A stretch of DNA of 7,221 nucleotides from B21-G16 sp003644825 [NCBI: Candidatus Zhuqueibacterota bacterium] (lineage in GTDB: Bacteria; SM23-31; B21-G16). The notes beneath the pieces were generated by a model. That model searched no databases. It was not told the origin of the DNA and was given only the letters and a program-made list of their open reading frames with translations. The stretch lies in NCBI GenBank assembly GCA_003644825.1, contig QNDJ01000068.1, positions 1 to 7,221 on the forward strand, in the 5' to 3' direction. Positions 3,030 to 7,221 of the stretch are shown here, piece by piece (position 1 is the first letter of the stretch; every line of letters starts with the position of its first letter). The position numbers and the translations under genes are program-made.

Positions 3030-3905
3030 TTAAACCTTAACATCCTCTTTAAATAAATAGTCAGCCTTAACCTTATGACGATGAAGACCCATTTCTTCTG
3101 GTTTAAACCCCTGGGCTATACCTAAAAGCTGGAAGTAATAAATAATCGGTATATTAAACTTTTTGTTAAATTTTCTACCCACTCTAATCTGTCCAATATC
3201 GTATTCATCAAAGCAGGTCGGGCATATTAGCCCCATACAATCTGCTTTAATCTTTTCTATTGATGATAAAACATCATAAACCATTTTAGGCGGTATTTCC
3301 TCGGACATACATGCTTTTCCACAGCATAAAAGCCTCTCCTCATGCTCCAGTGGGGTTGCACCAATAGCCGAAACAAGGTCTTCAAGAATGGTAGGATGAT
3401 CAGGGTCATCAACCTGCATTATTCTGCTTGGTTTGAGTAAATGACACCCATAATGGATTGCAACTTTCAGGTCTTCCAGAGGATTTATAACAGATTCTTT
3501 AACTTTATCGATACCAATATCGTCTCTAATTACTGTTACAATATGCCTTACGGAAATACTTCCCTCAAATTTTTTGTTGATTTTGCTCAGTCTTTTATTA
3601 ATCTCATTTCTTACATCAGGATTTTCTTTTAAAATATGATTTGCTTCGGAAAGAGTTGCCGTGCAACCACTACACATAGTAATTATATCATAACCTGCTT
3701 CTTCAGCGAGACAGATATTTCTCCCTGCGATGGTAAGCCACTCAATTTTATCTTCTGCTTTAAAGTAAATAGGATCAGGGCAACAGGTAAAACCTTTAAC
3801 ATCTACAAGTTCTACTCCGATATTTGGCATAGTCTTTCTTACAGAAGCCTCAAATTGCGGGTATTTCATAGAAATCATACACCCGAAGAAAGGTATGTAT
3901 TTCAT
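3030..3905 (-). CDS. hdrB: HdrB-like heterodisulfide reductase subunit B (two CCG domains)
   Basis: The 291-residue protein is the usual length for HdrB. It has both cysteine-rich CCG motifs: C9-x31-C41C42-x35-C78-x2-C81, and C154-x39-C194C195-x32-C228-x2-C231. In methanogen HdrB these motifs hold two unusual noncubane [4Fe-4S] clusters that split the CoM-S-S-CoB disulfide. In bacteria the disulfide or other acceptor of such proteins is mostly unknown. All ten motif cysteines are present, so it should be able to bind both clusters. No signal peptide or membrane segment is seen, so it is cytoplasmic. GAGGG at 3913-3917 is 7 nt before the ATG. It lies 24 bp after hdrC, its expected partner. No HdrA is visible in the window, so the electron donor is not known from this sequence. 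Confidence 0.93.
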   Translation of the reverse strand: MKYIPFFGCMISMKYPQFEASVRKTMPNIGVELVDVKGFTCCPDPIYFKAEDKIEWLTIAGRNICLAEEAGYDIITMCSGCTATLSEANHILKENPDVRNEINKRLSKINKKFEGSISVRHIVTVIRDDIGIDKVKESVINPLEDLKVAIHYGCHLLKPSRIMQVDDPDHPTILEDLVSAIGATPLEHEERLLCCGKACMSEEIPPKMVYDVLSSIEKIKADCMGLICPTCFDEYDIGQIRVGRKFNKKFNIPIIYYFQLLGIAQGFKPEEMGLHRHKVKADYLFKEDVKV

Positions 3906-3929
3906 TTTATTTCCCTCTATTTTTAGATT

Positions 3930-4400
3930 TTATAATCCTTTTGTTATTATCTCTATTTCTTTAACAGCATCAGAGATTGGTTCGATTTTACCCAATCCGA
4001 GTTCCTGTCGTCTTTTATCTACAAGGGGAGTATAAGTAACAGTTCTACCCGTTTTTCTAACACTTTCAACAATTTTACTAATTTCTACAGGATTTTTTTC
4101 CTGGTCAACAGTTATATTTTTTAATGCTATTATTACTTCGATGGGTCTCACATCCTGGGGACACCTTTCAAAACAGGTATAACAATTTGTGCATAACCAT
4201 ATTGGAGAATCATCAGCAATCAGTTCATCTTCCATACCGAATAGAGCCTTAAGGAGTATAACTCTCGGGTTGAATTCTTCACTATATTTTGCTGCAGGGC
4301 AATCACCAACACATGCACCACACTGATAGCAGTAGTTCAGTCGATCCCCATCAAGCATTGCATCAAGCTTATTTCTGAAATCAAAGTTTAATTTTGTCAT
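3930..4400 (-). CDS. hdrC: HdrC-like heterodisulfide reductase subunit C (2x[4Fe-4S])
   Basis: This 156-residue soluble protein has two ferredoxin-type cluster motifs: C24-x2-C27-x2-C30-x3-C34-P and C70-x2-C73-x2-C76-x3-C80-P. Their spacing (YCYQCGACVGDCPA and LCTNCYTCFERCP) is typical of HdrC, which passes electrons to HdrB. There are no membrane helices, which separates it from DsrK, HdrD and QmoC-type fusions. Its likely ribosome binding site AAGGG (4410-4414) overlaps the TAA stop of the zinc-ribbon gene and sits 9 nt before the ATG, so the two genes are probably translated together. The charged C-terminal tail (about 100-156) has no motif that I recognise. Confidence 0.93.
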   Translation of the reverse strand: MTKLNFDFRNKLDAMLDGDRLNYCYQCGACVGDCPAAKYSEEFNPRVILLKALFGMEDELIADDSPIWLCTNCYTCFERCPQDVRPIEVIIALKNITVDQEKNPVEISKIVESVRKTGRTVTYTPLVDKRRQELGLGKIEPISDAVKEIEIITKGL

Positions 4401-4584: not shown

Positions 4585-6420
4585 TTAACAGATTAGAGCT
4601 TTTTTCGTTTCAGAAATAATTGAATTAACCTCCTGCGTACATCTATAGTAATCCTCGAGCAGTTTTTTTATTTCTCCATTACCATTACTGTTTTTATAGC
4701 CCAGAATTTTTGCTGTATTTTCAAGATAATCAATATGAAGAGTATCCTCAGCCGATGAGGTCAATCTATAAACATCTCTTATTGATTTTAGAAAATCTAA
4801 AGCCTTTTCTAATTTTCTGATGTTCTCGGAATTTTTTGAATCAAGAGAAGCAATTTTCTCAATTAATTTATAAGATATAGGCTCTCTTATTTTGTAAATA
4901 GCTTTATAAATTAAAAATATAGATTCAATATCCCTTAAACCACCTATTCCTTCTTTAATATTCGGACTATCACTTTCAACATTTCTTCTATCTCTGTGCC
5001 GTGATTCAATTTCATTTAGCATATCTCTTGCATATTCATCACATTTATTAAATATATGAGGTGTTATGATTTTGTCAACAAATTCTTTTTCAAATTTTTT
5101 ACTTCCCACAACCAATCTTGACCCGAGAATCTGAGATTTATCAATAAATATATCAGAATCACCCCTGGAGAAAAGTTCATCAAGCTGATCTATTAGAGTA
5201 ACATAATTTCCAAAGTGGTCAGAAAACCTGTAATGAGGCAGTGTTCCTCTTTTAATTATTTCAGTATTCATTCTCGTAATAATTTTATTTGTATATCTAA
5301 TTATTTCTTCATCATTAGAGTTAAGAACTGCCACAAGGTCATAATCATCATCAAAAGCCTGCTCTCTAGCATGACCACCTGTAGTGAATATCGCAAAAAG
5401 GTCTTTTGTATCGACATTATACCCAATTTCCTGGTCAATTTCGGTTTTACATATCTCAAACAGGGTTTGAATGTAATTATCACAGAACTCAGTGAAGTTC
5501 ACATTTGTTTCTCTAATTGAAGCACCCTGGAGCGTCTCAAGACCTACTCTCAGAAATTCAATATCGTAATAATCACCAATCTTCTCTTTTTTTTCCTTTA
5601 TTGAAGGTAAATTTTCAACCTTCGCAAAAATACCTTTAGATATCTGGTTTAATTTTTTAGTATCATCAAGATATTCAATAAATTCAGGATATTTATTAAT
5701 TATCCTTATAAAAAACCTTTTAAAATACTGGCTTGAGTTGAAATGAAGTTCACATAAATTGAGTAATCTTTTTCTAAGAATATCAATTTCTTTTTCCCAG
5801 ATATCTCCCCTAAGTAGTGAAACAAACATATTCTGTCTGTTTTCTGGTATTATCATAAGATAGTTGTTAATAAGTTTAGGATAATGATTAAATACCCTTG
5901 CAATCCGCGGTTTAACATCCCAGATTCTATTCATTTCCTTTAGAAATGCATCATTAAGCAAATTAAAAAAATCTTTATTTTTTGTTCTATTCTGAAACTT
6001 CGATATCATAACAAGCAGAGATATCATTGCATAAAAAGTAGTGCCACCCCATTCAGCATAAAGGTCTATCAATTCTTTTCTTCTTTCGGGCGGTATTTTA
6101 TAAAAATCATTAATAAACTCAATTAGAAACATACCATTATTTGCTTCCATATCCTCGAGGAAATCATCCCAGAATCTTGTTCCTCTAAAAAATCTCAGAT
6201 TTATAATGAACTCTTCCGCAAGGTTTGTTTTCCTTCGTAGTTCTCTAATTTTTATTAGTTCATCCCCTGTTAATCTGGCAAAAACACTATTTGTTTTCAA
6301 ATGGGTTGTAATATCCTGAAAAAAACCATTAACAATTTCCTTTATTAATTTTATATATTCATAATAATGAATAAGAAGGTGGTCAAATGCTTTAATAACA
6401 CCAAAATCTTCATAACCCAT
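4585..6420 (-). CDS. GlnE/GlnD-like protein nucleotidyltransferase, downstream segment with the intact catalytic module
   Basis: The frame codes 611 residues. Residues 1-40 (MGYEDFGVIKAF...HYYEYIKLIKEI) match the end of a GlnE/GlnD helical domain whose beginning is encoded upstream of the TAG, so this ATG is probably an internal methionine. Residues 40-300 are helical and charged with no motif I recognise. Residues 305-460 form a nucleotidyltransferase domain: GGHAR at 348-352 and DYD at 359-361, the metal-binding pair of this superfamily. Residues 487-600 form the GlnD_UR_UTase-type helical domain: NIKEGIGGLRDIE (487-499), AED (557-559), LGY (573-575) and DYY (590-592). GlnD's HD and ACT domains are absent; the protein stops soon after the helical domain, as GlnE does. 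Likely role: transfers UMP or AMP to a regulatory protein or enzyme such as PII or glutamine synthetase. The target is not shown. Upstream of this ATG there is only a weak AGG at 14 nt. Confidence 0.75.
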   Translation of the reverse strand: MGYEDFGVIKAFDHLLIHYYEYIKLIKEIVNGFFQDITTHLKTNSVFARLTGDELIKIRELRRKTNLAEEFIINLRFFRGTRFWDDFLEDMEANNGMFLIEFINDFYKIPPERRKELIDLYAEWGGTTFYAMISLLVMISKFQNRTKNKDFFNLLNDAFLKEMNRIWDVKPRIARVFNHYPKLINNYLMIIPENRQNMFVSLLRGDIWEKEIDILRKRLLNLCELHFNSSQYFKRFFIRIINKYPEFIEYLDDTKKLNQISKGIFAKVENLPSIKEKKEKIGDYYDIEFLRVGLETLQGASIRETNVNFTEFCDNYIQTLFEICKTEIDQEIGYNVDTKDLFAIFTTGGHAREQAFDDDYDLVAVLNSNDEEIIRYTNKIITRMNTEIIKRGTLPHYRFSDHFGNYVTLIDQLDELFSRGDSDIFIDKSQILGSRLVVGSKKFEKEFVDKIITPHIFNKCDEYARDMLNEIESRHRDRRNVESDSPNIKEGIGGLRDIESIFLIYKAIYKIREPISYKLIEKIASLDSKNSENIRKLEKALDFLKSIRDVYRLTSSAEDTLHIDYLENTAKILGYKNSNGNGEIKKLLEDYYRCTQEVNSIISETKKALIC

Positions 6421-6435
6421 AGTTTTTGCTACAAC

Positions 6436-6438
6436 CTA
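6436..6438 (-). other. In-frame TAG codon interrupting a GlnE-like gene
   Basis: TAG followed by five sense codons (VVAKT) joins the two flanking frames in the same phase. The peptide before it ends LTEDLQRENL and the peptide after it reads VVAKTMGYEDF. Joined, they resemble the end of the GlnE/GlnD helical domain, and they also resemble the second module of this same gene (LHIDYLENTAKILGY). Options: a real nonsense mutation, a base error (for example GAG, CAG or AAG read as TAG), or readthrough. No hairpin or other recoding signal was identified next to it. Confidence 0.7.
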
Positions 6439-7221
6439 CAGGTTTTCTCTCTGTAAATCTTCTGTTAGAAATATTTCTTCTTCCTGAACATCGAATAACT
6501 GGTACAGATATCTAAAAGTTTCAAGGAAACCAAGAGCCTTTTCAAGAATTGAATAAGAATAGTTATTTTTGGGGTCTTCTTTTCTCAGTTTTTCAATAGT
6601 TTTCCAGTTATCGTTTTCATCAATATTGTATATTGTTTTGAGAACAGAAATGAGGGCTTTAATCATTCTTATTCCATCATCTTTAGGGTTGATGCTCTCG
6701 GTTTTCATCTGTCTTAGAATTAATGATCTGATTTCACCAAGAAGACCTCTAATATACCCTTCGTGATGTTTATTTTCTTTTTCTTTTTTAAAGAAATACT
6801 TACTTGTAATCTTTCTTTTAAACTCATAATAAAGTCTAATACTTCCAAAAATAGGTGCAGCACCAAGCATCTCATTAATAATTACAAAATCGTGAATCTC
6901 CTGATCGAGGAGTTCTTTATATTCTTTAATTGATGCAGAATAACTCTGAGAACCAACATGCTCCGATAGATACATATGCAGATTGCTCGCTCTTTTCAGC
7001 ATTTCATTTCTGAGTTTTCCAACAGCTTTATTAAATTCCACACGTCTCTCAGAACCATCATCAATTATTCCTATATCAATATCATCCTGGTCAGCTTTTG
7101 TTCCGACTCCACAGATAACAAATTCAGGCCATTTTTCCTTTTCAAGAAATAATCCAAACAGTTTCTCCATATAAGTGGAAGTAAGCTTTCGAAAATCATT
7201 GCCAAAATTTATCATAAATTC
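6436..7221 (-). CDS. GlnE/GlnD-like nucleotidyltransferase, upstream segment (5' end outside window, ends at in-frame TAG)
   Basis: An ATG occurs at 7215, but the frame is still open at the window edge (codons GAA TTT) and no ribosome binding site is visible, so the true start probably lies outside. Numbering from that ATG, residues 30-140 form a nucleotidyltransferase domain: GVGT (36-39) and DID (45-47). A stretch from 79 to about 142 (LHMYLSEHVG...FGS...YYEF) parallels residues 395-457 of the downstream segment (PHYRFSDHFG...VGS...FEKEF). Residues 150-259 begin a GlnD_UR_UTase-like helical domain in which the usual NxKEGxGGLRDI is reduced to NPKDDGIRMI (176-185), followed by LEKALGFLE, which matches LEKALDFLK downstream. 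The module keeps the paired aspartates but has degenerate glycine motifs, so it may have weak or different activity. Tandem modules recall GlnE, where one half removes and the other adds AMP on glutamine synthetase. Confidence 0.7.
   Translation of the reverse strand, partial: EFMINFGNDFRKLTSTYMEKLFGLFLEKEKWPEFVICGVGTKADQDDIDIGIIDDGSERRVEFNKAVGKLRNEMLKRASNLHMYLSEHVGSQSYSASIKEYKELLDQEIHDFVIINEMLGAAPIFGSIRLYYEFKRKITSKYFFKKEKENKHHEGYIRGLLGEIRSLILRQMKTESINPKDDGIRMIKALISVLKTIYNIDENDNWKTIEKLRKEDPKNNYSYSILEKALGFLETFRYLYQLFDVQEEEIFLTEDLQRENL

Follow-up and report, generated by a model that had tools for sequence, protein, structure and literature searches.

Two neighbouring open reading frames of a GlnE-like locus raise the question of whether they are two genes or one gene interrupted by a stop codon and, if the latter, what that stop codon represents. 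The window analysed here is the entire contig C68 (7221 bases); the draft genome to which it belongs totals 2.48 Mb, consists of 493 contigs and is 83.6% complete. On its minus strand, a single frame runs from the contig edge at 7221 to a TAA at 4585 with one interruption, an in-frame TAG at 6436–6438 (codon 262 of the 878-codon stretch on the contig). The first frame (ORF1; 6436–7221, minus strand) comprises 261 codons plus the TAG; it is open at the contig edge and lacks ∼110 N-terminal residues relative to homologues. The second part of the same frame (4585–6435, minus strand) ends in the TAA and has its earliest possible start at an ATG at 6418–6420, from which ORF2 extends over 611 codons in the phase of ORF1. 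Between the TAG and this ATG lie five open codons (VVAKT; 15 bases). Coordinates and translation therefore agree with the preliminary description, which had noted two frames of one phase parted by a TAG plus five codons. When the genome was searched with a full-length homologue, there was one match, 54% identical, which crossed both frames with the single TAG inside it. No second intact copy was found elsewhere in the genome with this query, nor was the missing N-terminal piece of the gene found elsewhere in the genome. Contamination was rejected at the level of GC content: the value for the contig (0.338) lies within the range of 15 other contigs (0.313–0.367).

A common threshold (E up to 1) was used to compare the domain content of ORF1, ORF2 and the read-through protein. 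With ORF1 alone, there was no match to the Pfam domain GlnD_UR_UTase. ORF2 alone gave one stretch with 70.7 bits, or 74.2 bits when the five codons before the ATG were included. Only the read-through protein gave two stretches (91.7 bits). The added stretch, in module 1 (residues 183–296; 6334–6675, minus strand), spans the TAG at residue 262 and lies narrowly above the Pfam cut-off (22.5 versus 21 bits). The same continuity is seen in an internal repeat. Module 1, a nucleotidyltransferase-like plus helical part that is cut by the TAG (residues 1–298; 6328–7221, minus strand), aligns through the TAG with module 2 (residues 578–870; 4612–5490, minus strand; GlnD_UR_UTase match at 4615–5022) over 309 columns, with 28% identity and an E of 3e-24. 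The modules carry the segments GVGTKADQDDID (7075–7110, minus strand) and GGHAREQAFDDDYD (5338–5379, minus strand), which contain residues that are invariant or nearly invariant in the alignments and which we take to be nucleotidyltransferase-like signatures. A structural model built for the full read-through product from 30 sequences (mean pLDDT 88.2, pTM 0.81) places residue 262 inside a predicted helix of residues 255–267 (6421–6459, minus strand), with block means of pLDDT of 88 (residues 251–260) and 94 (261–270). Domain match, repeat alignment and predicted helix all support the earlier proposal that ORF1 halts in the middle of a helical domain which the sequence after the TAG completes.

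How closely the protein resembles GlnE depends on the comparison. In a Foldseek search with the model, E. coli GlnE provided the top three of the four matches with E up to 0.001: structure 1v4a (E 7.6e-11, TM by target 0.72), then two chains of 3k7d. The fourth was DrrA (6yx5). Among solved structures, the two halves of the E. coli enzyme match best. As in GlnE, there are two tandem modules here, and a profile match to 1v4a has an E of 3.3e-5. Unlike a true GlnE, however, the protein is only 12–15% identical to it, the read-through protein scores 22.1 bits against a cut-off of 487 with the NCBIfam GlnE model, and it has no match to Pfam GlnE up to E 1. With GlnD, the PII uridylyltransferase, it shares GlnD_UR_UTase in both modules and partial matches to the NCBIfam GlnD models, of which the best has 88.5 bits, but the cut-offs of those models (519.4 to 1567) are missed (88.5 versus 959; TIGR01693, 85.8 versus 519.4). 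GlnD itself carries HD and ACT domains; no match to either was found up to E 1 in the GlnE-like protein. The NCBIfam cut-offs, applied to the read-through protein, thus rule out both GlnE proper and GlnD proper, and this copy lies above the cut-off of none of the NCBIfam models scanned. The earlier label of GlnE-like is justified for the fold: by the model, the protein has two repeated nucleotidyltransferase–helix modules with the GlnE fold. It does not extend to GlnE proper. We place the protein in a family of GlnE-fold tandem proteins of ∼990 residues that occurs in many candidate phyla, with 112 confirmed relatives. Searches of the literature on GlnE with Zixibacteria and others gave nothing on such a family among titles and the opening lines of abstracts, and a search combining GlnE, GlnD, Hdr and tandem found nothing. 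The family is, to us, of more interest than the TAG in this member of it.

To follow the frame across the TAG site, we scanned a reference-genome collection with an alignment of five members, which yielded the 112 relatives, of which 80 loci were kept. These and four loci from a search of 60 genomes made 84 rows, 82 of them distinct (L005 duplicates L095 and L006 duplicates L141). Removing the two duplicates, and L102 and L108, which have stops elsewhere, left the set of 80 homologues used for conservation; one further alignment took in 29 of the relatives. Record names place the relatives in KSB1, WOR-3, Stahlbacteria, Zixibacteria, Latescibacterota, Neomarinimicrobiota, Calditrichota, Krumholzibacteriota and others. 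Every one of the 84 rows has an amino acid at the TAG position with the frame continuing, and none is split there. The residue itself varies (A 24, Q 18, R 15, S 8, E 7, T 3, D 3, with six further residues in one row each). The stop-to-stop open frame is 972–1099 codons in the complete rows, with two exceptions: L143 (1294) and L102, where inner stops reduce it to 352. Contig ends truncate six rows (L086, L097, L119, L123, L126 and L146). L108 has a TAA near its C-terminal end that is probably the normal end of the gene. The preliminary description had asked whether homologues are continuous at this point and which residue replaces the TAG; they are continuous there in every row, most often with alanine or glutamine, and consistently separate genes starting at the ATG, which would have told against it, were not seen. 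The best homologues are 53–54% identical to this copy, and nothing closer was found. The nearest five of the 60 genomes share only the class. Two of these gave weak matches over the GlnD-like end (E 6.7e-13 and 1.9e-9), and the remaining three gave none. A single-protein scan of genome contigs gave no relative, the viral collection gave none, and a phylum search around genome G006 reached only G006 itself.

Neither of the two supposed start codons holds up. The preliminary description had placed the ATG at 6420 on a conserved methionine of an MGY motif. That methionine is in fact weakly kept (M 41, L 26, I 10, V 2, F 1 in the 80 homologues); the invariant residue is the adjoining glycine (80 of 80). 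It had also reported that a Shine–Dalgarno site is lacking, and indeed no Shine–Dalgarno-like tetramer lies 5–16 bases before ATG 6420. This is weak evidence, since such a tetramer precedes just 118 of the 244 starts of long ORFs in the contig sample (41 of 244 at an internal control site), and the 118 is probably an underestimate because starts were taken as the first possible codon. Judged by the alignment, ATG 6420 is an internal variable residue and a false start. The other candidate, ATG 7215, is no start either: homologue frames extend at least 111 residues upstream of it, which means that the gene continues past the contig edge, and the match between a full-length relative and the contig copy begins at the relative's residue 111. 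Because the homologues are continuous, a Pfam domain spans the TAG and the ATG is an internal variable residue, we conclude that this is one interrupted gene and not two.

Apart from the TAG, the gene on the contig is intact. At columns at least 95% conserved in the 80 homologues, this copy keeps 70 of 71 (34 of 35 before the TAG and 36 of 36 after it), which equals the fraction for the median homologue under leave-one-out. The drop in identity between the parts preceding and following the TAG is typical of the family: its mean (0.106) ranks 26th lowest among 70 sequences (median 0.118), which gives no hint of decay past the TAG. An old pseudogene, for which decay or relaxed constraint would be expected, was rejected on these grounds. 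An intact remainder leaves three possibilities: a recent change, a wrong base, or a downstream part that is still produced. In-frame stops in bacterial genes are described as widespread and mostly short-lived, and many genes that carry them have been argued to be no pseudogenes (Belinky et al. 2021, PMC7918605). The present case resembles theirs in that one in-frame TAG interrupts a gene that is otherwise conserved, and their worked example is also a TAG; it differs in that the stops kept there (PMC7918605) were common to at least two species, whereas here a single genome carries the stop. Among the records listed, a literature search on in-frame stops in assembled genomes turned up work on ciliates alone.

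We then asked what TAG means in this organism. The preliminary description had noted that all other gene ends are TAA. This is correct for the six other long frames in the window, but TAG is not unusual in the genome: in a sample of 35 further contigs (417 726 bases, with ORFs counted from 120 codons upwards, including the 15 contigs of the GC comparison), the 292 ORF ends are TAA 174, TGA 64 and TAG 54. RF1 (prfA) is present, whole and above its cut-off. With RF1 present and TAG ending 54 of 292 ORFs, TAG should terminate, and by sequence TAG is a working stop here. Genome-wide recoding of TAG was rejected on this stop usage and RF1. The possibility of pyrrolysine or a suppressor tRNA, raised earlier, found no support. 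In this 83.6% complete genome, the pylS model gave 25.5 bits (cut-off 178.15) and pylD at most 22.1 bits (cut-off 150.05). Similar sub-cut-off matches occur in 13 (PylS) and 10 (PylD) of 14 control genomes, with one control over the cut-off in each case. An MttB-like gene, itself below its cut-off, has no inner stop. Pyrrolysine was rejected on the two low scores and on this gene. None of the 13 tRNAs found (150 of 153 candidates scored) has a CTA anticodon, which counts only weakly against a suppressor because 13 is far from a full set and the genome is incomplete. A code in which TAG specifies glutamine (table 15) is known from phages (PMC9523058). It was rejected here: TAG is no rare stop, RF1 is present and no CTA tRNA is among the 13 of the incomplete set. 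Of 36 adjacent same-frame ORF pairs in the sampled contigs, two are TAG-parted, and a Pfam scan of these two pairs identified DUF4340 followed by PNPase in one, and a protein with no Pfam match followed by a NusG_II protein in the other.

Among the four choices offered by the preliminary description, the best fit is a nonsense lesion or a base error; a genuine split is disfavoured, and general recoding, or pyrrolysine, is unsupported. We consider it probable that the TAG is an ordinary nonsense mutation in one GlnE-like gene, recent and real in cells. One gene for a ∼990-residue protein with two tandem nucleotidyltransferase-plus-helix modules, the GlnE architecture, would have gained a single nonsense codon at a loosely constrained site of the first helical part. 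The change would be recent and, we infer, genuinely present in at least part of the population sampled. In those cells, RF1 would terminate at the TAG to leave a truncated first module, perhaps along with some second fragment if translation restarts at the ATG 15 bases further on. An intact downstream part would also be expected from readthrough or a working two-piece protein. Next in order, but unlikely, is an error in the consensus (sequencing error or strain mixing), with the gene intact in the organism. The draft state of the genome speaks weakly for an error, as does the contig's ending within the GlnE-like gene itself, with the remainder of the gene on the contig free of lesions. That the change is a substitution rather than an indel, in a gene with no other lesion, speaks as weakly against it. 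We ranked the nonsense change above a base error because the contig is otherwise clean, which is a judgement rather than a test. Either way, automatic annotation calls for caution: it would report two genes where a single one is interrupted or mis-sequenced, and would set a false start at an internal methionine.

A genuine split, in which two polypeptides, the second re-initiated at ATG 6420, assemble into a working enzyme, seems improbable. The ATG 15 bases past the TAG is compatible with it, given gaps of 0–36 bases in the 36 same-frame ORF neighbours of the sampled contigs. So is a Calditrichota relative (L102) in which two TAGs precede this position by 39 and 48 codons, within the same helical region, and whose frame is otherwise open and 75% identical to a relative. 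The break, however, falls within a predicted helix, a Pfam domain and an internal repeat; the start lacks both a Shine–Dalgarno-like site and a conserved methionine (41 of 80); and none of the 84 rows is split at the TAG site. We give still less credence to the TAG being read through or recoded (by a suppressor tRNA, or as pyrrolysine or glutamine) to give the full protein. The conserved downstream part would suit this, as would a variable site where many residues appear tolerable, with glutamine the second commonest (18), and the phage glutamine code is a precedent (PMC9523058). Against it stand TAG as the end of 54 of 292 ORFs in 35 contigs with RF1 present, PylS and PylD below cut-off as in most controls, the uninterrupted MttB-like gene, the absence of CTA among the 13 tRNAs of a far from full set, and only two of 36 same-frame pairs being TAG-parted, one of them (DUF4340 and PNPase) from different families. 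There is a similarly slim chance that the family tolerates a cut in the first helical part, module 1 and the rest being two chains made by re-initiation or low-level readthrough. This is hinted at by two TAG-bearing copies, this one and L102, whose stops are no more than 48 codons apart in a stretch of 878. The two halves of GlnE have separable activities; were the cut tolerated, it could set the ratio of two such activities.

The TAGs of L102 are in frame at 1518 and 1545, nine codons apart, and its genome also has RF1. In the window, the other end of the contig (1–483) encodes the C-terminal portion of an M64-type peptidase that the contig edge truncates. Downstream of the GlnE-like gene on the same strand (3030–4400) are an HdrC-like iron–sulphur protein gene (3930–4400, minus strand; TIGR03290, 114.5 bits, below the cut-off of 160) and an HdrB-like gene (3030–3905, minus strand; TIGR03288, 307.2 bits, below the cut-off of 345.15). 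Such genes were absent from five longer stretches of relatives (three repeat such loci). HdrC–HdrB-like genes do occur close to the GlnE-like gene in 12 of the 80 homologue loci, flanks being short in some (L067, L093, L107, L110, L111, L113, L117, L118, L121, L124, L127 and L137). They are convergent with it in 11 of the 12, 51–776 bases from the end of the match; in L093 they are upstream on the same strand.
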